NCBI GenBank assembly: GCA_030765605.1
Contig: JAVCCG010000006.1
Span: 1 to 22,627 of the forward strand
DNA: 22,627 nt
Direction: 5' to 3'
Source of the DNA: Candidatus Alcyoniella australis
GTDB taxonomy: Bacteria > Lernaellota > Lernaellaia > JAVCCG01 > Alcyoniellaceae
Shown here: positions 1,520 through 22,335 of the stretch, one piece after another
How the letters are laid out: the number at the start of each line of letters is the position of its first letter
How positions within the stretch are numbered: the first letter of the stretch is position 1
Made by a program: the position numbers and the translations under genes
The notes under the pieces: model-generated
Told to the model about the DNA's origin: nothing
Database searches by the model: none
The model's input: the letters and a program-made list of their open reading frames with translations, nothing else

Positions 1520-3109
1520 TTATAGCCCGCAGCACTCCGAGCTGTCGCTGCTCGAGCTTGAGCTGCTGCCCAGGCCTACGCAGTCCTCGATCTCGGAGCA
1601 GGAATCAGCGGCGATGATGCATTCGTAGACCGACTGCCTGAAGAGTTCGCACAGATCAAGACACTCGCTTATGGTATTGATGCCGAGGTCACCTGAAAGC
1701 GAGCATTGGTCGATGCGCTCGCACATTGTCTGGCAGTCGCGGTCCTCCGAATCGTCGTCGTCGATGTCATCATCGTCGTCGTCACCGGGCGAGCCGTTGT
1801 TGAGAAAGCTGCTCAGGCCTGCGGAGTAGGCGCCGGCGAAGTTGCCGTAGTAGTCCGTGCCGCTCATGTGGCTGCACGAGGCGTCCCCGGCCGAGAGCGT
1901 GCCCACCACCTTGGCCGAAGAGCTGAGCAGGGACGAGCCCGAGCTGCCGCCCTCGGTCGAGCCTTCGCGGTAGTGCACCTCGGTGAAGTCGGAGTAGGTG
2001 CCCACCACGTTGCCGATCGACAGTCGCAAATACGCGCCCGCCGGATGGTGCAGCACGCTGGCCGCCGAGCCGCTGCCGACCTGGCTGGCGCTCCAACCCA
2101 AATAGGCAGCGCCCGCGGGCGGCGAGCTGTCGAGCATCAGCAGGGTCATGTCGTAAGTGCTGTTGGTCCACTTCAGGTCCGAGCCCGAGGAATGGGGTAG
2201 CGAGTAGAAATTGGGCGCCGAGCCGTTGCACACCGATGTGTTGTAGTTCCAGGTGACGACCAGGGAGTTGGCTTCGGACGCGCCGGAGATGCAGTGATTG
2301 GCGGTGATGAACCACGGTTGATAGGTAAGTGCGGTATCGGACAACAGCGTACCGGTGCAGCTATAAGTGCCGCCCCCGCTCTCGAAGGCCATCTGGCCCA
2401 CCGCGCTCTTGAGCGGTACCCAGTCGCTGTGACATGTAGGGTCCAAGTAGCACCACGATTCCTTTTCGCCCGAATCCAAGCCCGCGTCGAACTCGACGAT
2501 GCCGTGGCTGATCCAGTCGATCCGGAACTGCGGCGGCGTATCCAAGTCGTTGACCAGCTCGATGTGCAGCACGTCGCCCTGGATCAGCGGGCCCCAGAAC
2601 TGGTCAGCGCCGTCGGTCCTGAACTGCTCCAACGTTTGCACGGTCCCGACGCTCGGATCGCCGTAGACCATTACCTGCGACGCGAGGTTCGCGTTCAGAC
2701 CGCTGAAGTGCGGCCGGATGAAAGTCGCGCCCTCGGAGCGGATCGCCACGCGCCACGAGCGCGCGCCGTCGGCCGCCTCGAGCTGCTCCCAGGTGGCGGG
2801 ATCGATCTGCGGCACGGGCACGCTCACGCCGATCAGCTCGCGCTTGGCGTCCGGGTTGTCCGCGCGCAGCCGCTGCAACGCGTCGGCCACAGTCGCCGGG
2901 TCGATCGACACGGTGGACGATTGCGGCGCAACGCTGCCCAGCACCATGCCCGGGCAAGTCAGTGGGGCGTTGGGAAGCACGGCGTCCTGCGTGATCGGCG
3001 AGAAGGTCGTCTGCGTCTGCGCAGCCTCGTCAGGGGCCGCGTAGGTGAAGGCGACCAGCAACAGTGCGAGCAGCAGAACCCCCGCGATAGTCGGGAATCG
3101 GAATCTCAT
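1520..3109 (-). CDS. Secreted trypsin-like serine protease (lysyl-endopeptidase-like) with Asp-rich stalk and Cys-rich tail
   Basis: 529 residues. A signal peptide spans about 1-24 (RFRF, a Leu/Val-rich core, then AA). The protease domain shows the chymotrypsin-fold triad: H272 in TANHC, D320 in TYDMTLL and S390 in TEGGSSGSS; the last motif closely matches Achromobacter-type lysyl endopeptidases. Residues 25-220 look like a propeptide or N-terminal domain. After the protease come an Asp stalk (about 443-455), a Cys-rich module with spaced C-x3-C pairs (459-510), a Ser run and a terminal ECCGL. The start is ATG behind TAGGAGGT with about 8 bases spacing. A promoter lies at 3175-3204. Expected role: cleavage of external proteins, with the stalk and tail probably for surface attachment (inference). 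Substrate specificity (Lys or otherwise) is not proved by sequence. Confidence 0.88.
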   Translation of the reverse strand: MRFRFPTIAGVLLLALLLVAFTYAAPDEAAQTQTTFSPITQDAVLPNAPLTCPGMVLGSVAPQSSTVSIDPATVADALQRLRADNPDAKRELIGVSVPVPQIDPATWEQLEAADGARSWRVAIRSEGATFIRPHFSGLNANLASQVMVYGDPSVGTVQTLEQFRTDGADQFWGPLIQGDVLHIELVNDLDTPPQFRIDWISHGIVEFDAGLDSGEKESWCYLDPTCHSDWVPLKSAVGQMAFESGGGTYSCTGTLLSDTALTYQPWFITANHCISGASEANSLVVTWNYNTSVCNGSAPNFYSLPHSSGSDLKWTNSTYDMTLLMLDSSPPAGAAYLGWSASQVGSGSAASVLHHPAGAYLRLSIGNVVGTYSDFTEVHYREGSTEGGSSGSSLLSSSAKVVGTLSAGDASCSHMSGTDYYGNFAGAYSAGLSSFLNNGSPGDDDDDDIDDDDSEDRDCQTMCERIDQCSLSGDLGINTISECLDLCELFRQSVYECIIAADSCSEIEDCVGLGSSSSSSSDSSECCGL

Positions 3110-3754: not shown

Positions 3755-4624
3755 TCAGGGCAGAAACTCCAGTTCGGCCGAGGTCGGCAGTTGGATGTTG
3801 GGGAAGATCTCGTTGATCTCGAGAACCATCACGTCGGCCACGAGCTGGTGGCCGCGCTCGTTGATGTGGCGCACGTCGGTCATGATCTGCCAGATGTAGA
3901 CCGGCTCGCCGTTGTAACGCACCTTGCCCAGCAGCACCTGGGCGTAATACCAGTCCAGGTCCACCAGGTGGTATGCAGGGTAGGCCGCAACCTCCTCGGC
4001 GATGGTGCGGTTGACCGCCTGCTTGTCGCCGTCGTAGTTGATCATTGCCAGCACCGGGATGTTGCACCAGAGCATCAGCGCGTTGGGCGCCTCGTTGGTG
4101 GAGGTGGTCAGCATCTGGCGCACGCGCAGGCGGAAGATCGTCAGCGAAGGATCGTCGTCGAGCAGGTGGAAGAAGCTGCCCACGTCGATGAACAGCGTGG
4201 CGCTCTCGCGCAGCTTCCAGGGGTGCTTGTATTCGACCACCCAGAACTGCGGATCGGGCGCGTCGCACAGCGCGAGCTGCGGCCAGGCCTGGTTGACCAG
4301 CTTGCCGTAGTAGTACTGGGTGTACTCGCCCAGACCGTAGGGCCCGCCCTCGTTGTCGTAGACCGTGTCGCTGGCGCCCATGGTGTTCAGCTCGCCCAGC
4401 AGGTTGATCTCCTGCCAGCTCAGGGTCTCGCAGTAGCCCGGGGGCAGGTCGTCGTCATCGCCCGTGTCGTCGTCCGCCTGATCGTCGTCGTCGCCCGTGT
4501 CGTCGTCGCCTGTGGCGTCGTCGTCGATCGCGTCGTCGTCATCGCCGCCTGATTCGCAGGACAGTGCGAACACCAGCAACAGCGCGAGCAGCGTTGCCAA
4601 CCATGCAACACGGAGGTTTTTCAC
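3755..4624 (-). CDS. Lipoprotein with Asp-rich stalk and SGNH/GDSL-hydrolase-like domain
   Basis: 289 residues from a GTG start, preceded by GGAGGT with 5 bases spacing. Residues 1-22 are a lipoprotein signal and the lipobox ends LSC, with C23 the lipidated Cys. Residues 28-59 are an Asp-rich stalk (blocks of DDDD split by A/I/T/G). The remaining domain has a GAS motif near residue 85 after a hydrophobic strand (possible block I nucleophile) and a clear C-terminal D-x-x-H block (DVRHINERGH, about 250-259), as in SGNH hydrolases that cut ester or acyl bonds. The oxyanion Gly and Asn blocks are not obvious, so activity is uncertain. It is probably displayed on a membrane surface. A TATAAT box at 4661-4666 suggests its own promoter. 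Confidence 0.7.
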   Translation of the reverse strand: MKNLRVAWLATLLALLLVFALSCESGGDDDDAIDDDATGDDDTGDDDDQADDDTGDDDDLPPGYCETLSWQEINLLGELNTMGASDTVYDNEGGPYGLGEYTQYYYGKLVNQAWPQLALCDAPDPQFWVVEYKHPWKLRESATLFIDVGSFFHLLDDDPSLTIFRLRVRQMLTTSTNEAPNALMLWCNIPVLAMINYDGDKQAVNRTIAEEVAAYPAYHLVDLDWYYAQVLLGKVRYNGEPVYIWQIMTDVRHINERGHQLVADVMVLEINEIFPNIQLPTSAELEFLP

Positions 4625-8268: not shown

Positions 8269-8991
8269 ATGAGCGGCCTGGATTTGTCCGTGCTGATTCC
8301 AACCAAGGAGGAAGCGGGCAGCGTGGGCCGAGTTGTGAGCGACGCCATTGAGGCCTGCCGCGAATTGGGCGTGAGCTACGAGGTGCTGGTCGTGGACGCC
8401 GGCAGCCTTGACCACACGGCCGAGCACGCCGCGCAGGCCGGGGCGCGGATTGTCGAGCAGCGCCGCGCCACCTACAGCGGAGCGATTCTCGACGGCCTGG
8501 ATGCCGCGCGGGGCCAATGGGTGCTGATCAGCGACGCGGACGGCTCCCACGAACTGCAGCTGATCCCGCGGCTGTGGCAGGCGCGCGATAGGGCCGAGTT
8601 GGTGATCGCCGCGCGCTACGTTCCCGGCGGAAGCTGGGAGATGCCGCTGTCGCGCTATGTGCTCTCGCGCGTGCTCAACTGGGCGTTCGCGATTTTGCTG
8701 GCGCTGCCGTTGCGCGACTCGTCCAGCGGCTACCGGCTGCTGCGGCGCGACGTCGTAACCCGCTATCGCTACTTCGGCCGCAACCTGAGTATCATCCAGG
8801 AGATCGCAACTGTGTTGCACATCAACGGCCATCGCATCATCGAGCTGCCGATCAACTTCCGGCCGCGGACCCTAGGCCAAAGCAAGTCGCGGGTGCTTAG
8901 CTTCGGCCCGTCGTATTTACGGACTCTGCTGCGGCTGATGCGCTACCGCTGGCTGGGACACAAGGGCTACGAGCCCCAGCCGCGGGGATAG
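8269..8991 (+). CDS. GT2 glycosyltransferase, polyprenyl-phosphate sugar synthase-like
   Basis: 240 residues, GT-A fold. LSVLIPTKEE (6-15), VVDAGS (41-46) and DADG (89-92, metal/nucleotide-sugar binding) mark GT2. ARYVPGG, RDSSSGYRL and the late IELPINFRPRTLGQSK are typical of DPM1-like enzymes that move a sugar from a nucleotide donor to dolichyl/undecaprenyl phosphate on the cytoplasmic side. One or two hydrophobic segments occur near 145-158, with no C-terminal membrane domain. The start is ATG 8269 with GAGGTGA about 11 bases upstream; 79 bases separate it from the preceding gene. Donor sugar unknown. Confidence 0.88.
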   Translation: MSGLDLSVLIPTKEEAGSVGRVVSDAIEACRELGVSYEVLVVDAGSLDHTAEHAAQAGARIVEQRRATYSGAILDGLDAARGQWVLISDADGSHELQLIPRLWQARDRAELVIAARYVPGGSWEMPLSRYVLSRVLNWAFAILLALPLRDSSSGYRLLRRDVVTRYRYFGRNLSIIQEIATVLHINGHRIIELPINFRPRTLGQSKSRVLSFGPSYLRTLLRLMRYRWLGHKGYEPQPRG

Positions 8992-9001
8992 GGGAGGGGC
9001 G

Positions 9002-9769
9002 ATGCCCGAGGACGCAATCAGGGTGCTCTACGCCGGGGACGGCGAGACCATCAACTACCTGGTGACCAAAGGGATGAGCTTTTATATGGCCGGCGGGTAC
9101 CAGGACGAGTCGATGTTTCTGATCGGCGCGCTGGCCGCGGACCCGGCGATCGAGGTGGTGCACATCAAGCCCGGCGAAAGCTTGGAGACCTTCCCGCGCA
9201 CCATCGAGGAACTCTCGACCTTCGACGTCTGCCTGCTCTCGGACATCGGTGCGGACACGATCCTGTTCTACATGGATCGCGACAAAGTGCCGATGGGCCC
9301 CGACCGGATCAAGCTGCTCGAGCGCTGGTGTCGCCAAGGCGGCGGACTGGGGATGATCGGCGGCTGGTCGAGCTTCGGCGGCTGGGGCGGACAGGCGCGC
9401 TGGCACGACACGCCGGTGGAGCGCTGTTTGCCGGTATTGATCAAGGACGGCGACGACCGCGTGGAGACCGTGGAGGGGATCGAGCCGCAACCGATCGACA
9501 TGCAGCATCCGATCATCGCCGGTTTGCCCTGGGACTGGTCCGAGCAGATCCTCTATCTGGGGTACAACCGTTTTCGCGCCAAGCCCGAGGCGCGGGTGCT
9601 GGCAAAAGTCGGCGACGACCCGCTGCTGGTGGTCGGGCAATGCGATCAGGGCCGCAGCCTGGCCTATGCCAGCGACTGCGCGCCGCACTGGGCGGGCAGC
9701 ATGCTCAAATGGCCGGGCAATCCGCAGTTCTGGGTGCGCTGTGTGCGCTGGCTGGCCGGCAGGCTGTGA
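9002..9769 (+). CDS. Class I glutamine-amidotransferase-like protein (PF07090/COG5426-type)
   Basis: 255 residues, soluble. The order of motifs matches the putative glutamine amidotransferase family PF07090: DVCLLSDIGA, then GGGLGMIGGWSSFGGWGG, RWHDTPVE, HPI near residue 165, YLGYNRF, then SDCAPHW and a final WVRCVRWLAG. As in that family, the position of a class I GATase nucleophile Cys holds Gly/Ser (MIGGWSS), so glutaminase activity is not expected. Biological role unknown. Strong Shine-Dalgarno GGGAGGGGCG before ATG; it starts 10 bases after the GT2 stop and is followed 2 bases later by the GNAT gene, so an operon is likely. Confidence 0.8.
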   Translation: MPEDAIRVLYAGDGETINYLVTKGMSFYMAGGYQDESMFLIGALAADPAIEVVHIKPGESLETFPRTIEELSTFDVCLLSDIGADTILFYMDRDKVPMGPDRIKLLERWCRQGGGLGMIGGWSSFGGWGGQARWHDTPVERCLPVLIKDGDDRVETVEGIEPQPIDMQHPIIAGLPWDWSEQILYLGYNRFRAKPEARVLAKVGDDPLLVVGQCDQGRSLAYASDCAPHWAGSMLKWPGNPQFWVRCVRWLAGRL

Positions 9770-9771
9770 CG

Positions 9772-10263
9772 ATGCCCGACCAGGCGCAATCCAACATTAA
9801 AATCGTCCCGGCCAGACGCCGCGACCTGGATACGGTACTGCAAATGGTGCTGACGCTGGTGCGCGAGCTCGAGCCGCTGAACCGCATGGAGCCGCTGCTG
9901 CCCAATCATCACCGAATCGGCGAACGCTATATCAGGCGCGTGATCGAGGACGATCGCCACAACTTCCTGCTGGCGGTCGACGATGAACGAAGCGTCGGCC
10001 TCTCCGAATTCCGCGTGCGTCAATCCATTGAGCCGGCCGCGCCGCTGGTCTACGGCTACATCACCTGGTTCTACGTGCATCCCGACTTTCGCCAACTCGG
10101 CGTGGGACGTCGACTGCTCGATGCCACCCGGCGACGGCTGCGGCAGCTCGGCGCGCAACAGATGCGCCTGGGCGCCCTGGCGCTCAACCAAGGCGCCGTG
10201 GAGTTCTGGCGCCGCATGGGCTTTGATCCGGGCGTGATCACCATGTTCAACAAACTCGATTGA
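9772..10263 (+). CDS. GNAT-family N-acetyltransferase
   Basis: 163 residues. The acetyl-CoA site is visible as YVHPDFRQLGVGRRLLD (motif A, R/QxxGxG), followed by a C-terminal LALNQGAVEFWRRMGF, the standard GNAT motif B ending. The substrate cannot be predicted. ATG 9772 is chosen because it begins 2 bases after the upstream stop and gives a normal GNAT length; the same frame stays open further left only because of GC bias. It closes the 8269-10263 gene run. Confidence 0.88.
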   Translation: MPDQAQSNIKIVPARRRDLDTVLQMVLTLVRELEPLNRMEPLLPNHHRIGERYIRRVIEDDRHNFLLAVDDERSVGLSEFRVRQSIEPAAPLVYGYITWFYVHPDFRQLGVGRRLLDATRRRLRQLGAQQMRLGALALNQGAVEFWRRMGFDPGVITMFNKLD

Positions 10264-10302
10264 CGAGTATTTCCGCCCCTTGACGCCCTCCCGCGGTTAA
10301 TC

Positions 10303-10320
10303 AACAGTTAGCGGACTGTT
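10303..10320. promoter_or_regulatory. Inverted repeat in the leader of the glycerophosphodiesterase gene
   Basis: AACAGT-6 bases-ACTGTT, perfect 6-bp arms, ends 5 bases before the GGAGG of the next gene. It could be an operator or an RNA hairpin near the ribosome site. A TTGACG lies upstream at 10280-10285 but no good -10 follows. Confidence 0.3.
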
Positions 10321-10336
10321 AACCCGGAGGCCGCTG

Positions 10337-11302
10337 ATGCGTTTTATTCAATTGATGATTCTCCTGGCCGCGACAGCGTTGCTTTGCGTTCCGGCGATGG
10401 CCGCGGCCGACGGTCCGCCGCTGAACATCGGCCATCGCGGCACCGGGTCCAACGGCCTGGGCAATCCCTTTCCCGAGAACACGATCCCGAGCTTCGAGCA
10501 GGCGTTCGCCGAGGGCGCGGACATGATCGAGCTCGACGTGACCCTCAGCTTTGATGGCCAGGTGGTGGTGATTCACGACGACACGTTGGACCGCACAACC
10601 GATTGCAGCGGCTGTGTGGATGCGCTGACCCTTGAGCAGATCCAGCTGTGCGACGCTGCCGTGGGCACACCGCTGGAGGGCAGCGGCGTGACCGTGCCCA
10701 CGTTGTATGAGGTGTTCGACGCGATCGGCGACCTGGGCCTGGTCAACGTTGAAATAAAATCCGGCTCGTGCAGCGGGATTCCCGCGGCCGACCTGGCCGC
10801 TGCCGTGGACCAGGTGCTCGGCGATGTGGACGCGCCCGCGGGCACGATCATCTCCTGCTTCAGCGCCGGTGTGCTTAGTCAGATGGAGCTGCTCGATCCC
10901 GAGCATTTTACCGGCCTGCTGTTCAACGAGCTGGACAACGGCCCGTCCATTGAGCAGGCCCACGACCTGGGGTTCGACGCGGTGCATCCGTTTCACCTCA
11001 CGCTCAACGCCGACCAAGTAACCTGGGCCCATTCGATGGACCTCAGCGTCAACCCCTGGACCATCGACGACCGGCTGCGGATGGAGGCGTTGTTTGGCAT
11101 GGACGTGGACGGGATCATCACCGACGCGCCGGACCTGCTTGCCGCGGCCATCGACGACTGGCCCTGGCCTCCGGCTGACGACGATGACGACGATGACGAC
11201 ATCGACGACGATGACGACATTGATGACGATGATGCGGGCGATGACGACGACGCGCCCGTTGGCGACGACGATGATGACGACGACTCGGGCTGCTGCGGAT
11301 AA
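10337..11302 (+). CDS. Secreted glycerophosphodiester phosphodiesterase with Asp-rich C-terminal stalk ending SGCCG
   Basis: 321 residues. A signal peptide covers about 1-23 (core LMILLAATALLCVP, AMA site). The GDPD domain has all hallmarks: GHRG (H33, R34), PENT (46-49), the metal-ligand pair E65 and D67 in IELDV, and HDDTLDRTT (80-88) with the second catalytic His; VEIK follows. It hydrolyses glycerophosphodiesters to glycerol-3-phosphate and an alcohol. After about residue 277 the chain becomes an Asp stalk and stops at SGCCG. There is no lipobox, so if attached it is through the tail. Shine-Dalgarno GGAGG, 7 bases before ATG. Confidence 0.9.
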   Translation: MRFIQLMILLAATALLCVPAMAAADGPPLNIGHRGTGSNGLGNPFPENTIPSFEQAFAEGADMIELDVTLSFDGQVVVIHDDTLDRTTDCSGCVDALTLEQIQLCDAAVGTPLEGSGVTVPTLYEVFDAIGDLGLVNVEIKSGSCSGIPAADLAAAVDQVLGDVDAPAGTIISCFSAGVLSQMELLDPEHFTGLLFNELDNGPSIEQAHDLGFDAVHPFHLTLNADQVTWAHSMDLSVNPWTIDDRLRMEALFGMDVDGIITDAPDLLAAAIDDWPWPPADDDDDDDDIDDDDDIDDDDAGDDDDAPVGDDDDDDDSGCCG

Positions 11303-11314
11303 GGATTTGCCCGG

Positions 11315-11343
11315 TTGACAATCGAGTGGCAGTCGTCTATAAA
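11315..11343 (+). promoter_or_regulatory. Near-consensus sigma70 promoter of the 48-residue basic protein
   Basis: TTGACA (11315-11320), exactly 17 bases, then TATAAA (11338-11343). Transcription should begin near 11350, leaving a leader of about 32 bases with a GGAGGAGGTG ribosome site. It is the best promoter match in the window. Confidence 0.75.
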
Positions 11344-11381
11344 CTGCCGCTCCGGGATGACTGATCCGGAGGAGGTGCCAG

Positions 11382-11528
11382 ATGGCGAGCAACAGAAAAG
11401 TCACGAGCTTCGTGCGCAAGCGTAAAAAGACCAAGATGGGCAAGGCGCGCAAGCGCGTAATGCGTGTCCAGAGCACTCCTGCGTTCCCAATTCATCCTGA
11501 CGGAAAGCCCGCCGAGACCAAGCCCTGA
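11382..11528 (+). CDS. 48-residue very basic small protein
   Basis: MASNRKVTSFVRKRKKTKMG begins the product; the first 30 residues contain about 14 Lys/Arg, followed by STPAFPIHPDGKP. Strong ribosome site (GGAGGAGGTG, 4 bases before ATG) and a near-consensus promoter indicate high expression. I recall similar short proteins with KxGKARKR and STPxFPIH in deltaproteobacteria-like genomes, but cannot check. The charge pattern suggests RNA, ribosome or nucleic-acid binding (inference). It is too short to be noticed by usual ORF cut-offs. No other known small ribosomal protein fits clearly. Confidence 0.75.
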   Translation: MASNRKVTSFVRKRKKTKMGKARKRVMRVQSTPAFPIHPDGKPAETKP

Positions 11529-11644
11529 CCTCAATTGAAAGCTGTTAATACGCTCAACCCGTCACAGATCGTCGCGGGGGGGCTTGAGTTGTGTGCCGGG
11601 CATTGTTTACATTGTTGGTTAAAGGAGCGAGACGCTTCAGAACC

Positions 11645-12652
11645 ATGAACGATTCGGACCCTCCCAGCTTTTCTGAATTCCAACTGATCGAGCTGATCCG
11701 CCGTGCGGCCGGGGATCCGGGCGCGGGCGTAACGATCGGCATCGGCGACGACGCCGCAGCGCTGTGCCTAAGCGGCGAGCTGTTGATCACCGTCGACGTG
11801 ATGAACCAAGACGTACATCTGCCGCTGGAACTGATGAGCCACGAGCAGATGGGCGCTAGGGCCGTGCTGGCCGCGGCGAGCGACATCTGCGCCATGGGCG
11901 CGCGGCCGCAATGGATTTTCGTCGGCCTGGCCGTGCCCCTTGATCTCGACGCTGGCGCGGCTTTGGCCCTGGGCCAGGGTATCGTGCGTGGCTGCGAAAT
12001 CGTCGGCGCGCATCTGGTGGGCGGCGATCTGACGCGTGGCGCGCTGTCGATCAGTGTGACCGTGCTCGGCCGGTCGCCGGAGGGCGGCGCGATCCGGCGC
12101 AGTGGCGCAAAGCCGGGCGATCTGATCTACGTCGGCGGCACCCTGGGCGACGCGTGCCTGGGCCTGTCGCTGATGCGCGGCGAGATTCAATCCGACGATC
12201 CGCAAGAGGCCGCGCGGCTCAAGGCGCGCTTCTGCGAGCCGCACCCCCAGCTCGAGCTCGGCGCACTGCTTGGCGAGTGGCAACTGGCCCACGCCCTAAT
12301 CGACGTGTCCGACGGGCTGATCCAGGACCTGGGGCACGTGGCCCAGGCTTCGGACGTTGCGATGGAGATCGACGTGCAGTTCGTGCCGCGCTCGCCGCTG
12401 TTCGAGCAGGCCTTTGTTGACCAACCCCAGCGCCTGGCGCGGATACTGGGCTGGGGCGAGGATTTTCGCCTGGCGTTCTGCATATCCCCGGACGCGGCGC
12501 AGCGTCTCGAATCGGCCACGGCGCAGTTTGACGAGCGCCCGGTTTGCGTGGGTCGAGTGCTCCAGGCCGGACCCGAGGGTCCGCGGGTGACGCTGCTCGA
12601 CGCTCAAGGACAGCCGCTGGATCTGCCCGACGGGGGGTATCGGCACTTCTGA
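11645..12652 (+). CDS. thiL: Thiamine-monophosphate kinase
   Basis: 335 residues, typical for ThiL. It phosphorylates thiamine monophosphate to the diphosphate with ATP, the last step of the pathway. Motifs in order: EFQLIELIRR (11-20), GIGDDAA (32-38, metal/ATP), a TVDVMNQDVHL strand, AAASDICAMGARP (77-88), GGDLTRG (126-132), GDLIYVGGTLGDA (158-170), IDVSDGLIQDLG (219-230) and GEDFRLAF in place of GEDYELLF. ATG 11645 is chosen because it places the EF.LI motif at the usual distance; its ribosome site is weak (AGGAG about 17 bases upstream), and in-frame GTG 11591 is an alternative. The stop TGA overlaps the next ATG. Confidence 0.92.
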   Translation: MNDSDPPSFSEFQLIELIRRAAGDPGAGVTIGIGDDAAALCLSGELLITVDVMNQDVHLPLELMSHEQMGARAVLAAASDICAMGARPQWIFVGLAVPLDLDAGAALALGQGIVRGCEIVGAHLVGGDLTRGALSISVTVLGRSPEGGAIRRSGAKPGDLIYVGGTLGDACLGLSLMRGEIQSDDPQEAARLKARFCEPHPQLELGALLGEWQLAHALIDVSDGLIQDLGHVAQASDVAMEIDVQFVPRSPLFEQAFVDQPQRLARILGWGEDFRLAFCISPDAAQRLESATAQFDERPVCVGRVLQAGPEGPRVTLLDAQGQPLDLPDGGYRHF

Positions 12653-13935: not shown

Positions 13936-15185
13936 GTCTGTCGCTGACTGCGCTGATCGTGTTCGTCTGTCTGGTGAGCGAGGCGTTTTTCTCGGGCAGC
14001 GAGATCGCCTTAGTCAATGCCGACCGCATTCGGCTGCAACGGATGGCGTCCCAGGGAACGCGCGGTGCAGTGCTGGCACTGCGCTTTATCGACCGCCCGC
14101 AGTGGTTGTTCGGCACCACGCTGGTCGGGACCAACATTGCAACGGTCACGGCCTCGATCACGATCACGTTGTTTTTAGCGGACCTGCTCTCGACCAACGT
14201 CGAGTGGCTGGCTGTGCTGTGCACCATGCCCTTGACGCTGCTGATCGGCGAGTTCATCCCCAAAAGCCTGTTCCAGCACTGGTCGGACCAGCTGGCGCCG
14301 CTGATTGTTTTTCCGCTGACGATCTGTGGACTGCTGCTTGCGCCGGTGGTGATGCTGGCGGTGTTGGTTGGCGGCGGAGTCGCGCGGCTGGTCGGCGGAC
14401 GGGCGGAGAACGGGGCGCGCTTCCTTAGCCGCAACGAGCTGCGGCTGCTGGCCCGCCAGCAGCACAAGGTTGAGGAACTGGCCGACGAGAGCAAGATGAT
14501 CCGCCGGATGATCGAGTTTCCGAACCTGACCTGCCAGGACGTAAGCAAGCCGCTGGTCGACGTGGCTGTGGTGCGCGGCGACTGGACCGTGGATCGAGCG
14601 CTGGAGCTGATTGCGCAAAAGGGCTTCTCGCGCTATCCGATATGCGGCGAGCGTGTGGACGAGGTGTTGGGCATCCTGCACAGCTTCGATCTGTTGGGAC
14701 GTTCGCCCGACGAGCCGTTGATAGACCTGGCGCGTCCGGCGACTTTCGTGCCTCAGACCATGAGCGCCGAGCGGCTGCTGCGGCAGATGCAGCGCACGGG
14801 CCAATCGATGGCAATTGTGGTCGACGAGTACGGCGCGGCCGACGGCATCGTCACCTCCGAGGATCTGATCGAGGAGATCGTCGGTGAGATCGAGGACGAA
14901 CACGACCGGCTCGAACAGCCCTGGATCGAACAGTCCCCGGGCGTCTACCTGATCAGCGGCCGCGCCGAGATCTCGCGGCTCAACGAGGATCTCGATCTGG
15001 GACTGCCCGAGGGCGACTATCAAACCCTGGCCGGATTGATGCTGGCCCGGATGGGACGCATTGCGCGCCAGGGCGAACAGCTGTCGGTCGGCGCGCTCGA
15101 GCTGACCGTGCGCCGCGCCACGGGCCGCGCGCTGTTGCAGATCCAACTGCGGCTGCAAGGCGATCAGGACGGAGGCGCAAGTTGA
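13932..15185 (+). CDS. CNNM/CorC-type hemolysin-family membrane protein 2
   Basis: 417 residues from a GTG start inside the upstream stop (GTGA). Same plan as its neighbour: FSGSEIALV, a looser [11 protein letters not shown] helix, GEFIPK, then a CBS pair whose second unit has [26 protein letters not shown], and a C-terminal CorC/HlyC domain ([20 protein letters not shown]). The first CBS unit lacks the usual MTPR motif (SKPLVDV instead). Sequence identity to the first protein is modest outside the motifs, so this is an old pair; bacterial genomes often hold such tandem pairs that may form hetero-oligomers (inference). Confidence 0.9.
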
Positions 15186-17107
15186 GGCTCTGCCTAGTCG
15201 CCTCCTCCTATCCGCGTACGCCCGAGGACTCGATCAACGCCGGGGTGTTCGTGCGCGACTGCGCACTGGCCGCGCGCGACGCCGGACACCGGGTGAGCGT
15301 GGTCACCCATCGCAAATCCGGCCCCAGCGTGCCCGACCCGGGGATCGAGCTGGTCGAGTATCCCTGGCTGGGCACTGAGACCAGCCTGACCTCGGTGCGG
15401 CTCAACAGTCCGGCAGGCCCGTTCAAGGCCGCCTCGTTGTTGACGTTGGGCGCGCGCGCTCTGCGGCGACATATCGAGCAGCGCGGCTGCGACGCGGTGC
15501 TGGCGTTCTGGGCGATTCCCGGCGGGCTGATCGCACGATCGGCCTGCCTGCCCCTGGGCGTGCCCTATGCGGTCTGGGCGTTGGGTTCCGACATCTGGCG
15601 CTACGAGCACTCGCGGCTTGTGGGGCCGACCCTGCGACGGGTGCTGCGCGACGCGACCGCGCTCTATGCCGACGGCCTGGAGCTGGCGCAGCGGGTCGAG
15701 GCCGTGGCCGGACGCAAGTGCGCTTTCGCGCCCAGCTCGCGTCGACTGCCCGATCCCGACGATTTGCCGAATCTCGACCAAAGTAAAAAACAGCTGCTGT
15801 TCGTGGGGCGCTATCACCCCAACAAGGGGCCGGACGTGTTGCTTGAGGCGACCCAGCTTCTGCATCGCGAGCTACCCGACATGCGGCTGAGCGTTTTTGG
15901 CCAAGGCGAGCTGCAATCGTCGCTAACGGCTCGGGCCGCACGGCCGGACCTCGACGGATGTGTGGAGGTCGGCGGATTCATCGGGGCCCAGCGCTTTGCC
16001 GCGCACCTCGATCAGGTCGACGCGCTGGTGATCCCCTCGCGCATCGAGAGCATTCCGGTGGTGCTCTCCGACGCGGCACAACGCGGAACGCCGCTGGTGG
16101 TCACGGACGTGGGCGACATGGGCGCGCTGGTCAGGCAATACTCGGCGGGCGAGGTGGCGCGGCCCGAGGATCCGGCGGACCTGGCGCGGGCCATGGGCGA
16201 AGTGCTCGAACGCGGGCGCGGGGCATACGCCCTGGGCCTGGCCGCCTTGGCCGCACTCTTTGACATCGAGTCGACCATGCAGCAGATCAGCGGACAGCTC
16301 GAAACGGCGGCCCAGAGTGAGGCAGTAGGTCGCGCCGGAATTTGCGCACGGCTGTTCACGCGGCTGATCGCCAAGCTCTCGGCCCTGGCCGGACGAGCCG
16401 TGCGACCGGGCATGCGCCTGCGTCCCGGCGGGTTTGAGGCCGGGCATCCCAAGCATCTGCTGCCCGAGTCGGCCGACCACCACTGGTACCTCGAGCATCT
16501 CAAGGCGGACTTGCTGGTGCTCGACCTGGGGTGCGATCGCGGTGGACACGCGCGGCGCGCGGCGCGGGTGGCGCGGGCCGTGGTCGGCATCGAGCGCGAG
16601 CAAGCGGCGCTGCTGGCGGCACGTCAGGCCGGGGAGGCGGACTATTTGCGGGCCGACCTCGAATTGCCGCTGCCGTTTCGTTCCGACGCGTTTGATTGCG
16701 TGCTGGCCCTGGACGTGATCGAACACCTCGACGGACGCGACGAGTTCCTGGCCGAGGCGCGGCGGGTGCTGCGCGAGCGCGGTCTGTTGTTGCTCTCGGC
16801 GCCCAACTCGCGCACCGCGTGGAAGCGCGCATTGGCGCGCGCAGGCTTGAGTCCGCTGGCCGACCCGACGCATCGCATTGAGTACGCTGAACGCGAGCTG
16901 CGCGCAGTCTGCGAGCGGGCGGGATTCGAGGTGCTGCGCGTCGAGCCGGTGGTGCTCGACACTCCCTGGGCGCGGCTGATCGACCTGATCGGAGTATTGA
17001 GCATCCCGCTCTACCGCAAGGGTGTACAATGGAAACGCGCGCGCGCGCTGTCCAACCCGGACCAAAGCACCGGCTTTCGTTTAACGTTACGCAAGACGGC
17101 GGTTTAA
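15182..17107 (+). CDS. Fusion of GT4 glycosyltransferase and SAM-dependent methyltransferase
   Basis: 641 residues, TTG start overlapping the upstream TGA. Residues 1-375 are a GT-B glycosyltransferase of family GT4: N-terminal LCLVASSYP with AGVFVRD, then LLFVGRYHPNKGPDVLLEA (205-223) and a donor-site block PSRIESIPVVLSDA (285-298) in which the second acidic residue of the EX7E is Asp. Residues 440-640 are a class I methyltransferase: motif I LVLDLGCDRGG (445-455), acidic E at 471, and FDCVLALDVIEHLDGRDEF (504-522) of the Methyltransf_11 type. A basic linker (about 380-430) joins them. It probably makes or caps a glycan by adding sugar and methyl groups. Frame is continuous; no sign of error. 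Confidence 0.88.
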   Translation: MRLCLVASSYPRTPEDSINAGVFVRDCALAARDAGHRVSVVTHRKSGPSVPDPGIELVEYPWLGTETSLTSVRLNSPAGPFKAASLLTLGARALRRHIEQRGCDAVLAFWAIPGGLIARSACLPLGVPYAVWALGSDIWRYEHSRLVGPTLRRVLRDATALYADGLELAQRVEAVAGRKCAFAPSSRRLPDPDDLPNLDQSKKQLLFVGRYHPNKGPDVLLEATQLLHRELPDMRLSVFGQGELQSSLTARAARPDLDGCVEVGGFIGAQRFAAHLDQVDALVIPSRIESIPVVLSDAAQRGTPLVVTDVGDMGALVRQYSAGEVARPEDPADLARAMGEVLERGRGAYALGLAALAALFDIESTMQQISGQLETAAQSEAVGRAGICARLFTRLIAKLSALAGRAVRPGMRLRPGGFEAGHPKHLLPESADHHWYLEHLKADLLVLDLGCDRGGHARRAARVARAVVGIEREQAALLAARQAGEADYLRADLELPLPFRSDAFDCVLALDVIEHLDGRDEFLAEARRVLRERGLLLLSAPNSRTAWKRALARAGLSPLADPTHRIEYAERELRAVCERAGFEVLRVEPVVLDTPWARLIDLIGVLSIPLYRKGVQWKRARALSNPDQSTGFRLTLRKTAV

Positions 17108-17649: not shown

Positions 17650-19899
17650 TCAGTCGCCCTCGGCGCGTTGTGCCGGGTCGGCGCAGCAGCGCAGGCCGTC
17701 GTCGGAGTAGGTGCCTTCCTCGGGGAAGTGCCGGTGACGGCTGGTGCAGTCCTGGCCGTACCAATCCGACCACCACGAGGTGCCGCCGCGCAAAATGTAC
17801 ATCCGGCGATACCCCTCCTGATCAAACGGCGTCGAGGTCCACTCCGAGAGATTGCCGTTGAGATCGAAGATCCCCTCGGGCGTGACGCATTCGGGGAACG
17901 AGCCGCTGGGACGCCGCGGACCGGACTGGCCGTCGCCACCGCCCCAGTTGCAGCGGCTGGACTCGAGCCGGTCGCCGTAACAGTACTCACGGCCCTCCAC
18001 GCCCGAGCAAGCGCGGTCCCACTCGTCCTCGGTACACAGCCGTTTTCCCTGCTGCGCGCACAGCTCGCCCGCCTCGTGCCAGTTGACGTAGTTGCGCGGC
18101 TCGACCCCCTTGTGATTGGGATATTCGTAGATGTCCATGCAAAAGGTCGGCACCTCGATTCGTTGTGGCTCGCGCTCCCACGACTTGGGCTGATGCTCGT
18201 GGCCCACGCTGATTGCAGCCGCGGAAAGCAGCGCCATGCCCTCGGGGCAGACGAGGTTCCCGACCGTTGCGGGTTCGGGCTGCGGCGCGGCCTGAATGCG
18301 GCGGCAGAAGTGGATGTTTTCGATGGTGGTCTGCACCTCGTAGTTGCCCTCGATCCATTGGCGCAGCTCGGGGAAATCGCGGCGCAACGCGGTCAGCGAA
18401 TCCATGGCATGGCCGTTGATCCAGGGCATGGAATCGCCGCTGACCAGCAGCACGTATTTGGGCCGCGCGGCTCGCAGATCGCGCAGCAGCTCCTCGTACC
18501 AGTCCTGACGATGCCACGAGGCGACGATCGGGTAGTTCGAGCAGAAGCGCGTGGGCGCAGGCCGATCGGCCAGATAGTAGATCAGCGTCTCAAAGCCCCA
18601 GATGTAGATCGGCTCTCCCGGCGCTGTGTGCTGCCGCAGAAATTCAGCCCCCAGGTAGTTGGCCGTGGCCGAGAAATCGCCGCCATGCTCGATGCTGTCA
18701 AAGCGCGCCAAGTGCTCGCGTTGGCTCAGCGTACCGGTGGCCAGCCCTCGCGCCTCGGATATGCGCGTGACGTACTCGCCTCCGTAACGCCCGACAAAGC
18801 TCAGCGCGCAGACCACAAGTATGGCCGCGCCCGCCAGTGCCCAGACCAGGCGGCGCGTGGTAAAGGCGACCATGACCCGGTCCACGAACACGGCCGCGAG
18901 CATTGCCAGCGGCGCTAATAACGGCAGCCAATGGTAGGCGTAGAACTTGCCCATCACGTCCATGCCCAGCACGGTGGCCACGAGCCAGGCGCAAAGTGCC
19001 AGCCCGTGCGCGCGACGATCGCGCAGCAACAACCAGGCCGCGGCGATTAGCCCGGGCACGGCAATCAGCGCCTGGTCCAACACGAATCGGCAATGCTGCC
19101 CCAAGGCGAAGCGCAGGAACTCGGCGAGTTGCCCCTGGTAGGTCAGCACCGCGTACTTGGGCGCGAACACGAACAGCGTGTAGAAGAAGTCGTCCCACGC
19201 TCCCAATGCCACGAGATGCATTGCGAACGCGGCCAACCCGACGCAGAACCCCACGCTGAGCACCGCGGTCCTGCCGACCCGCGCGAACAACCCGTAGGGC
19301 CGCAGCCGCAAGCCTTGGCCGAAAATCAGCGCCAGCACCGGAAGGTAGATCAATCCTTGGGTGAAGCGGACCAGAAACACCGCGGCCATCAGCAGCCCGG
19401 CGAGCAGATCCCACGACCAGCGCGGCCCGCGCGACTTGGGCAGCAGCGCGATCAACGCCAACGCCGAGGGCAGGGCGGCCAGCGAGTCGGTGTTGCCCAG
19501 GTTCCAAAAATTGTTTCCCAGGTAGTAGGCCGCCAGGTACAGCACGCCGGACCAGGTGCCGACCCGCGTGTTGAACAGCCGACGTCCCAGGCCGAACAGC
19601 GCCAGGCCGGTGGCCGCCTGCCACAACAGATCGCCCAGCCGCAGGGCCAGGCCGCCTTTTCCCAGCAGCGCGATCCACGAGGCGTAGACGTAGAACACGC
19701 CCGGCGGTCGGATTTCCCACGCGTCGGAGTAGGGCGCACCGCCGTGAAGCAACACATCGGCGATGTACAGCCCGATCCCCTGATCGCGTCCCAGGGGCAG
19801 CCACAGCGCGGGACCGCCGAGCAGCAGCGCCGCGAGCAGCACCAGCAGCCATCCGGCGCGCCCCGGCCGTTTCAAATCTGCGATTGCCGAACTATCCAT
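17650..19899 (-). CDS. Polytopic GT39/ArnT-like glycosyltransferase fused to an FGE-sulfatase-like domain
   Basis: 749 residues. Residues 1-400 hold about ten hydrophobic helices; the first external loop has [18 protein letters not shown] and WEIRPPGVF, the signature of family 39-like polyprenyl-phosphate-sugar transferases, with the Asp of RDQG as probable catalytic base. Residues 400-530 are an extracytoplasmic domain ending in NIHFCRRI. Residues 551-740 match the FGE-sulfatase fold: [45 protein letters not shown] and a final LRGGTSWW...GLRCCAD. Copper-binding Cys pairs of true formylglycine-generating enzymes are not evident, so this part may bind rather than oxidise. ATG 19899 is preferred: the same frame is open for 79 codons upstream but those lack protein character. 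Confidence 0.85.
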
Positions 19900-19908
19900 T
19901 GAACGGGC

Positions 19909-19914
19909 ATTATA
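19909..19914 (-). promoter_or_regulatory. -10 box at a possibly leaderless start
   Basis: Perfect TATAAT on the minus strand, with only 9 bases between it and the ATG at 19899. Transcription would begin 0-3 bases before the start codon, and no Shine-Dalgarno is present, which fits a leaderless mRNA. The -35 (GAGCAT or AGCATC) is poor. Confidence 0.45.
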
Positions 19915-19957: not shown

Positions 19958-20695
19958 ATGGCGCGGACCGTGATCGTGATGCCGGCGTACAACGCCGAGA
20001 AGACCCTGCAGAAAACCCTGGCCGACATACCCGAGGGATTGGCCGAACACGTGATCCTGGTGGACGATGCCAGCACCGACCGCACGGCGGAGCTGGCGCG
20101 CGATCTGGGCCTGACCGTGTTCGTGCACGAACGCAACCGCGGCTACGGCGCCAACCAGAAGACCTGCTACCGCGAGGCGCTCAAGCTCGGGGCCGAGGTG
20201 GTGGTGATGATCCACCCCGACTACCAGTACGACAGCGCACTGGCCCCGCACCTAGTCGACCTGATCGCCCGCGGCTACTTCGACGTGATGCTCGGCACGC
20301 GCATCCGCACGCGCGGCGAGACCATGGCCGGCGGCATGCCCTGGTGGAAGTACCTCTCCAACCGCTTCCTGACCCTGGCCGAGAACGTGCTCACCGGACA
20401 GAACCTCTCCGAGTGGCACACCGGCTACCGCGCCTACTCGCGCAAGGTGCTCGAAACGGTCCCCTGGGAGCGCAACTCCGACGACTTCATCTTCGACTCG
20501 CAGTTCCTGATGCAGACGGCCTTTCTCGGATTCAAAATCGCCGAGATCCCGGTGCCCGTGCGCTACTACGACGACTCGAGCTCGATCAACTTCAAACGCA
20601 GCGCAACCTACGGCCTGCTTACTCTGTACACGGCCCTGCAGTTCGCCCTGGCCCGCACCAAAATCCACCGCGCCAAACTCTTCGAGCCCAAATAG
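19958..20695 (+). CDS. GT2 glycosyltransferase, second polyprenyl-phosphate sugar synthase-like
   Basis: 245 residues. [14 protein letters not shown] (4-17), [11 protein letters not shown] (33-43) and [10 protein letters not shown] (60-69) mark GT2; the DXD-type site is IHPDYQYD (85-92). TGYRAYSR and [17 protein letters not shown] are late-domain motifs common in DPM1-like enzymes. It should use a nucleotide sugar on the cytoplasmic face. It is divergent from the polytopic transferase, 58 bases apart, a pairing that fits making and using a lipid-linked sugar (inference). The ribosome site AGAGGATAAAG lies just before ATG. Last GC-rich gene before the compositional change. Confidence 0.9.
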
Positions 20696-20854: not shown

Positions 20855-21189
20855 GTTTTCTTTTTTGAACCGGTTCTCTCTGTCTTTCGGATTAGCACGA
20901 GGGTCTTTTGCAACGCCACGTACAAGCGCTTGAAGTCAACGGTTTTTCCAGGGTTGGGACGGCTGCCGGCTCGCGCAATCTTATGGACGCGGTTGCGCCC
21001 CCAAGCACCCATTTTGCCCCCCCCAATAGCCCTTTCTCCGTCTCTTTCTCTGAATCTTTTGGACTACCCCCACCTCGTCCTAAAGATGAGAGTGCTTATA
21101 AATCAAGTAGTTATAAAGACAGTTTTTCGGAGAGTTCGACTCCCGCGACGATTAGCATGGAACTCTTTATTACGAGAAAGGGGTCTATA
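20855..21189. other. Gene-free stretch of mixed composition between tmRNA fragment and TIR gene
   Basis: I see no supported gene. Contents: a T-rich run then a perfect palindrome GAACCGGTTC (20867-20876), moderately GC-rich sequence to about 21010, an eight-C run near 21017-21024, then AT-rich sequence. A GGAG-7 bases-CTCC hairpin at about 21129-21143 contains GTTCGACTCC (21134-21143), the same 10-mer as the tmRNA T-arm at 20831-20840. The frame of the next gene is open through here from TTG 20908 but the residues (Pro/Ser-rich, no hydrophobic core) look non-coding. Confidence 0.5.
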
Positions 21190-22335
21190 ATGCCGCCAAA
21201 AGCCTTTTTTAGTTGCCGCTTCGATAACGACAGCAAAGAAATAATAAACTATTTCAAGATAATTGCCAAATCATCTAATGTTCTGCCGATACTAGCTGAT
21301 CATGTTGAGTCAAAACCACTGGCGCAAAAGGTCCTTGAAACTATCAAGGACGCAGATTGCACAGTAGCGATAATTACTCCTTCAACTATTTCAAATCATG
21401 TAACAAGCGCTTGGATTAATCAAGAGGTTGGAATGTCGTATGCCGCTAATATTCCGGTTATTGCTTTTGTGGAAGATACAATACAAGATCTTGGCATTAT
21501 TCCAATTATTACTGAATATATCACATTTAACAGAAACAAACTGCACTTGATTCTCGACAAAGCCCTTTCCTTTTTTTCAGGTATCGCGGCAAAAATTACA
21601 TCAAAAAGCATTCAGTGCCTATATGACAATACTAATTGTAAAGAAAAACTAGACAAATATGCCGACATGTACGATACCCGTCTGTTCGTTAATCTTCCTG
21701 CCAAGCAGAAAATTGCCAAATGTGTGGTTGAAAAATTTATTTCGGATTCAACAAAAGGCATATTGTTGGACTCCGGTTCGGTGACATATGTGATTGCAGA
21801 TGAACTTATAAATAGTGGTTTACAAATTCCAATAGTAACAAATAATATCGCCATCATATCAAAGATGAAGGATATCCTTCATTACCCTGTGCATATCCTT
21901 CCAGGCGAACTTGATAGTCGAACCTTAGCTGTCGGTGGAAAAGATACGGCGGAAGTTGCAAGACAATACTTGATGGGAGAAATGAATATAACTATTGATA
22001 TTGCATTTTTAGCTGCAAATTCTATCGATCCAAATTTCGGACTAAGCGCTGACGCCACCCCCTTTGTCGACTTTCGTACGGCGATTCTAAGGAATGCACG
22101 AAACGTAGTAGTAGTTCTACAAGGAGAGAAGTTACTCAAGCCGGTTTTGAATCCAATAGTGGCTCAAGATGAATGGCGCGAGATATTTCACAGACGATCC
22201 GTAGAATCGTCTATGTGGATTGTGTGCCATACTCTTGTTGAACACTACGGGCAAGCTATGGAGAATAGATATATGAAATGCATGGAGTGTTTTAAGCAGG
22301 AATTACCGGATGGCCACGTGATTGAAATTTGTTAA
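21190..22335 (+). CDS. TIR-like domain fused to DeoR-type sugar-phosphate sensor domain
   Basis: 381 residues from ATG 21190 (AAGGGG 8 bases upstream). Residues 3-130 are TIR-like: first strand KAFFSCRF, then DADCTVAIITPSTIS (54-68), SAWINQEVGMSYA (73-85) with E79 at the place of the NADase Glu, and IPVIAFVED. Residues 188-320 follow the DeoR C-terminal sensor (DeoRC, ISOCOT fold): LLDSGSVTYVIAD (192-204; DeoR has DAGSTT), PIVTNN (214-219), ILPGELDSRTLAVGG (236-250) and FLAANSIDPNFGLSAD (273-288). No helix-turn-helix. Inference: a phosphosugar- or nucleotide-like ligand controls a TIR enzyme. The gene is AT-rich, unlike all neighbours on its left, and no partner gene is visible between it and the IS element. 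TIR activity is not proved by sequence. Confidence 0.8.
   Translation: MPPKAFFSCRFDNDSKEIINYFKIIAKSSNVLPILADHVESKPLAQKVLETIKDADCTVAIITPSTISNHVTSAWINQEVGMSYAANIPVIAFVEDTIQDLGIIPIITEYITFNRNKLHLILDKALSFFSGIAAKITSKSIQCLYDNTNCKEKLDKYADMYDTRLFVNLPAKQKIAKCVVEKFISDSTKGILLDSGSVTYVIADELINSGLQIPIVTNNIAIISKMKDILHYPVHILPGELDSRTLAVGGKDTAEVARQYLMGEMNITIDIAFLAANSIDPNFGLSADATPFVDFRTAILRNARNVVVVLQGEKLLKPVLNPIVAQDEWREIFHRRSVESSMWIVCHTLVEHYGQAMENRYMKCMECFKQELPDGHVIEIC

Follow-up and report, generated by a model that had tools for sequence, protein, structure and literature searches.

FGE-like domains without copper cysteines are common in bacteria, many of them carried on kinases, and we know of no assigned role for most of them. 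In human FGE, C218, C235, C346 and C365 form two structural disulfides and C336 and C341 make up the active-site pair (PMC4505483). Among the non-catalytic members of the fold, PorK has neither of the two catalytic cysteines and uses the former substrate groove for protein contacts (PMC12421860). Outer accessory domains are also already known on GT-C glycosyltransferases: eukaryotic PMTs with luminal MIR domains, and TMTC/TMEM260-like enzymes with TPRs, combine a GT-C membrane region with a soluble accessory domain on the acceptor side, and for the MIR domains of PMTs mannose-binding sites, an influence on processivity and the binding of O-mannosyl peptides have been reported (PMC7759382). What sets the locus described here apart is an FGE fold as probable outer accessory domain of a GT-C transferase. 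On balance, we consider it probable that the fused chain is a lipid-linked-sugar transferase with a non-catalytic, outer FGE-fold module for binding or docking, specific to its lineage.

A transferase and an FGE-fold domain in one reading frame

The window, meaning the whole stretch of 22,627 nucleotides that was analysed, is one entire contig of a genome assembly of 157 contigs (4.29 Mb, 98% complete). Two features define the fusion:

17650..19899, minus strand: fused gene encoding 749 aa, a PMT_2 glycosyltransferase followed by an FGE-fold domain (open frame, two Pfam domains, codon bias)
18250..18294, minus strand: linker at the join, residues 536-550 (standalone transferases stop just before it, the FGE domain begins after it, and its DNA is unique in the genome)

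The chain runs from an ATG at 19899 to a stop at 17650 on the minus strand without an internal stop. Pfam recognizes PMT_2 at residues 64-195 (51.3 bits against a cut-off of 26.1, E 2e-13) and, in the same chain, FGE-sulfatase at residues 596-738 (64.5 bits against a cut-off of 23.3, E 1.6e-17), while the GC content at the third codon position lies between 0.78 and 0.92 per 50-codon block in all blocks, the join included. A first-pass annotation of this DNA had read a transferase and an FGE-like domain without interruption in one chain, and the open frame, the two Pfam matches and the even codon bias agree with it. The range of residues 540-749 that it proposed for structure prediction is corrected as to the start, the complete FGE domain beginning at C551 (CPEGM) after a linker of residues ~536-550. 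The membrane enzyme, described there as GT39/ArnT-like, is likewise recovered by the 51.3-bit PMT_2 match as a transferase of PMT/ArnT type, an assignment that does not separate GT39 from GT83.

A fragmented assembly in which the window makes up a whole contig, together with relatives that all carry both parts as separate genes, might suggest two genes wrongly joined by a chimeric assembly or a frameshift. Against this, the frame is open across both halves, and the last codons of one gene rarely meet the domain start of another in frame. The 321 bp at the join have no second copy in the rest of the genome, with short chance matches only, and the surrounding 4 kb contain no substantial repeat. 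Because the codon bias stays even from one half to the other and the DNA at the junction occurs only once in the genome, we regard such an artifact as very improbable, and the fused chain is most likely real. A TATAAT sequence lies at 19909-19914 on the minus strand, 9 bp upstream of the ATG, with no obvious Shine-Dalgarno sequence, and the mRNA of the fused gene may be leaderless.

The transferase half resembles a complete PMT_2 enzyme

19315..19710, minus strand: PMT_2 Pfam match, residues 64-195
18295..19899, minus strand: transferase half, residues 1-535, made up of a membrane region that reaches residue ~369 and a soluble C-terminal domain of its own at ~370-535 (alignment with standalone relatives, hydropathy)
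19783..19785, minus strand: codon for the candidate catalytic acid D39, which lies in the first outer loop (invariant in five aligned relatives)

Residues 1-535 share with the PMT_2 (PF13231) GT-C glycosyltransferases the Pfam match, a predicted polytopic membrane region whose first outer loop carries an acidic residue, and a soluble C-terminal domain. In this loop, D39 and the GGAPYxD stretch are invariant in the alignment of transferase relatives, and D39, a candidate whose role is taken from the family, is probably the catalytic acid. Hydropathy gives at least nine hydrophobic segments in this half, and the alternation of Arg-rich short loops, on a simple positive-inside reading, would place residues 370 onward outside. 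The C-terminus of the fused chain is probably extracytoplasmic. An outer location of the FGE part fits this charge pattern and the topology of the family, the ten invariant cysteines described below, and the exported or post-membrane position of the domain in its relatives.

Within the class, sampled by seven genomes each from a different genus, the closest transferase relatives align over residues ~14-543 with identities of 55% (G004), 50% (G002) and 43% (G003). These three, and likewise a relative with 28-31% identity in G045, stop from a few to ~20 residues past residue 535, whereas the fused chain continues into an extra FGE-fold domain; none of the transferase relatives examined, these four included, has such a domain. 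Since the relatives end at ~535, the FGE domain was added to an already complete enzyme, behind that enzyme's own soluble C-terminal domain. No transferase relatives were found in viral contigs, and plasmid records gave a single, partial match in Leisingera. A model of the whole chain reached a mean pLDDT of 56.5 with the membrane part modelled without an alignment; its quality is too low for the domains to be oriented relative to each other, which weakens the case for our preferred explanation.

The FGE-fold half lacks the copper pair

17653..18249, minus strand: FGE-fold domain, residues 551-749, containing C640 in addition to the ten subfamily cysteines (Pfam, alignment, model, fold matches)
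17746..17787, minus strand: residues 705-718, the segment that holds the copper pair in active FGEs, with only C718 present (profile alignment to human FGE chains, PMC4505483)

Ten cysteines are invariant across 18 aligned members of a Cys-rich FGE subfamily, which begins with C-x-x-x-M (CPxGM) and ends in GxRCC in all 18; the GLRCC terminus of the fused chain, previously taken for a variant ending, is the norm of this subfamily. A profile of the FGE relatives matches solved FGEs and SUMF2, and in the profile alignment C614, C631, C718 and C738 fall on C218, C235, C346 and C365 of human FGE, so that both structural disulfide positions are kept. By contrast, the positions of human C336 and C341 are taken by other residues or a gap, and the fused domain, with zero cysteines between C671 and C718, has no counterpart of the copper pair. 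The GGxxxCxxxxC pattern of active FGE is likewise found in none of the 18 best FGE-sulfatase matches of the genome.

An AF2 model of the domain, built on an alignment of 38 relatives of which 37 come from viral contigs, is of fair quality (pLDDT 77.1, pTM 0.75), and its fold matches include CalU17, FGEs, TvpA, EgtB and PorK, with Z scores from 17.4 downwards. The structure check proposed in the first-pass annotation thus yields a predicted FGE fold (best Z 17.4) in which the copper-binding Cys pair is missing. Its remark that catalytic FGE cysteines are not evident is borne out by the cysteine-free stretch between C671 and C718, while its suggestion that the domain modifies a substrate Cys fails on the same ground, the stretch due to hold the copper pair having no cysteine. 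Residues 551-749 have the fold of an FGE, and formylglycine chemistry is very unlikely; the conserved cysteines would instead stabilize the domain through disulfides. The domain resembles other non-catalytic FGE-like proteins, PorK/GldK of the T9SS and SUMF2, in having the fold without copper cysteines and in probably lying outside the cytoplasm, but differs from them in being tethered to a transferase and in its ten conserved cysteines, as none of those proteins is part of a glycosyltransferase.

The same fold also houses EgtB-type enzymes, and in the domain they share the FGE part weakly resembles SenA and EgtB by NCBIfam, which would fit an enzyme that carries out another reaction of the FGE/EgtB/PvdO fold, or that makes formylglycine by way of other ligands. 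EgtB enzymes have a DinB-like N-terminal domain, however, and this is absent from the Pfam result; nor does the lack of any cysteine from C671 to C718 leave room for a copper pair, and disulfides explain the ten cysteines better. We consider an enzymatic FGE part highly unlikely. Still further from our expectation, and of almost negligible probability, is the reading that a diversity-generating retroelement has written the FGE part as a hypervariable domain for ligand binding: the fold matches of the model do include TvpA, Mtd and TaqVP, but a search of the genome for a near-identical template of the C-terminal 456 bp found none, a result for which a copy missed in the 98% complete assembly is conceivable but unlikely.

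A resident exported FGE-like gene as the likely source

In a tree of 40 FGE domains, the fused domain pairs with a standalone exported paralogue (C81) of the same genome (support 97/77), and the two form a clade of four (97/90) with standalone exported proteins from G002 (C5) and G006 (C374), all from the same class. Eight other close FGE relatives stand at the C-terminus of Ser/Thr kinases (Pfam check). These kinases resemble the fused chain in that a domain of the same Cys-rich FGE subfamily ends a longer chain, and differ in the partner, which here is a membrane sugar transferase; the chain has no Pfam kinase match. The event was likely one in which two resident genes became joined, one for a transferase and one for an exported FGE-like protein, the latter minus its signal peptide. 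Cys-rich FGE-domain relatives are also encoded on 54 viral contigs (L132-L185), mostly as standalone proteins of ~200-350 aa.

A singleton among large families

Whole-chain searches of ~580 distinct genomes, in which all candidates were scored for the class and two small phyla, the best five at most per genome for 195 genomes from the phylum to which G034 belongs, and the best two per genome for 386 genomes, found no second transferase-FGE chain; fusions of more distant halves could escape where few candidates per genome were scored. The search for other GT39-FGE fusions called for in the earlier annotation has therefore given none in these genomes. That annotation had also named, as an observation that would speak against the fusion, a consistent split of the two parts into separate genes among relatives; they are separate in every relative found, and the fusion here stands as a singleton. 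Long open frames at four transferase matches (L022, L024, L050 and L194) are no further fusions, being extensions before the start rather than C-terminal domains. A full-text search of the literature found no paper that joins FGE-sulfatase with PMT_2. On present evidence, the fusion is a lineage-specific singleton and not a conserved architecture, and because no other genome searched carries it, selection for the fusion is not established, which counts against our preferred explanation.

Both families are very large in these genomes. The 4.29-Mb genome has at least 66 PMT_2 matches and 23 FGE-sulfatase matches; G002, G004 and G006 have at least 58-76 PMT_2 matches per genome, and FGE-sulfatase matches number 19-59 per genome over all four. 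Leaving out the fused gene itself, nine FGE places in the four genomes have a PMT_2 match at a distance of 5 kb or less, where chance would give 10.6, both figures being lowered because they were counted among the PMT_2 matches listed, in which the weak end is absent. Neighbourhood association between the two families above chance is thus not seen in the four genomes, and given proximity at chance level we attach no weight to the neighbourhood.

Individual clusters were nonetheless observed. In G002 (contig C5), locus L055 at 8888-12460 is a compact single-strand series in which a standalone FGE gene from the clade of the fused domain is followed by a radical SAM gene of PflA/AmmeMemoRadiSam-like type and then by a PMT_2 gene, and two further clusters have FGE, GT2 and TMEM260-like O-mannosyltransferase genes in a row. 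A neighbourhood link drawn from these three was dropped in view of the base rate. In two genera, a PMT_2 gene immediately follows an FGE gene of like orientation (G002:C19:51992-53291 and G006:C3:27885-29311); the pair is possibly conserved, although overall proximity is at chance level.

The main rival to a functional module is a neutral passenger fusion, in which chance brought together members of two very large paralogous families, the transferase works as its relatives do, and the contribution of the FGE part is small or nil. Its occurrence as a singleton in ~580 genomes fits this well, as do the lack of neighbourhood association and the sheer number of PMT_2 and FGE matches in one genome, which eases chance joining. 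The FGE part, however, is intact from CPEGM to GLRCC, keeps the ten subfamily cysteines and a normal codon bias, and has no visible decay. We judge a neutral passenger plausible, though not the probable outcome.

Proposed working of the fused chain

19958..20695, plus strand: divergent GT2 gene, resembling polyprenyl-phosphate hexose synthases (Pfam; NCBIfam matches well below equivalog cut-offs)

In the functional reading that we prefer, a complete GT-C enzyme of PMT_2 type has been fused in frame to a complete FGE-like protein of the exported type that lacks its signal peptide. The membrane part would take a sugar from a polyprenyl-phosphate donor and transfer it outside the cytoplasm, probably using the acidic D39 for the transfer. 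A possible maker of the donor, judging by sequence, is the divergent GT2 gene that lies 58 bp from the fused gene. The FGE part would sit outside the membrane, behind the soluble domain of the transferase, stabilized by disulfides and making no formylglycine, and may serve as a tethered module that binds or docks the acceptor, be it protein or glycan, or a partner protein, in analogy to the MIR or TPR domains of other O-mannosyltransferases. PorK and the MIR domains of PMTs are precedents for such a role, and the suggestion of the first-pass annotation that the FGE fold could recognise the acceptor is plausible. The more specific proposal that the groove of the FGE fold binds the acceptor protein or the nascent glycan and thereby sets the choice of acceptor we hold as rather unlikely.

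The likeness to the MIR and TPR transferases is one of working only, with no common origin of the added part claimed: their accessory domain is a beta-trefoil or a TPR array, whereas here it is an FGE fold, and the fused chain has no Pfam match to a MIR domain. TPRs were also seen in our analysis, in the TMEM260-like enzymes of the FGE-GT2 clusters. If the groove does bind the acceptor, a tethered FGE module would be a further kind of GT-C accessory domain beside MIR and TPR. Since a guess can be made at the class of reaction that the transferase carries out, the fusion offers a concrete test of what an FGE-like domain may do, namely whether it holds an acceptor, and in a genome with so many PMT_2 matches the case is relevant to the ways in which expanded GT-C families might come to use diverse acceptors. 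Its reach is limited to that of a single, unconserved fusion.

Other genes in the window

A further chain of two domains, encoded at 15182-17107 on the plus strand, combines a GT4 glycosyltransferase with a class I methyltransferase over 641 aa. The gene at 20908-22335 (plus strand), which has a DeoR sensor domain and a weak TIR-like or deoxyribosyltransferase-like similarity, stands in a stretch of 39% GC, against ~60-70% elsewhere in the window, and is probably foreign. Three genes, at 1520-3109 and 3755-4624 on the minus strand and 10337-11302 on the plus strand, encode exported-looking proteins with long Asp-rich runs (DDDDD), which sit in linkers or tails, as they do in other genomes of the class.
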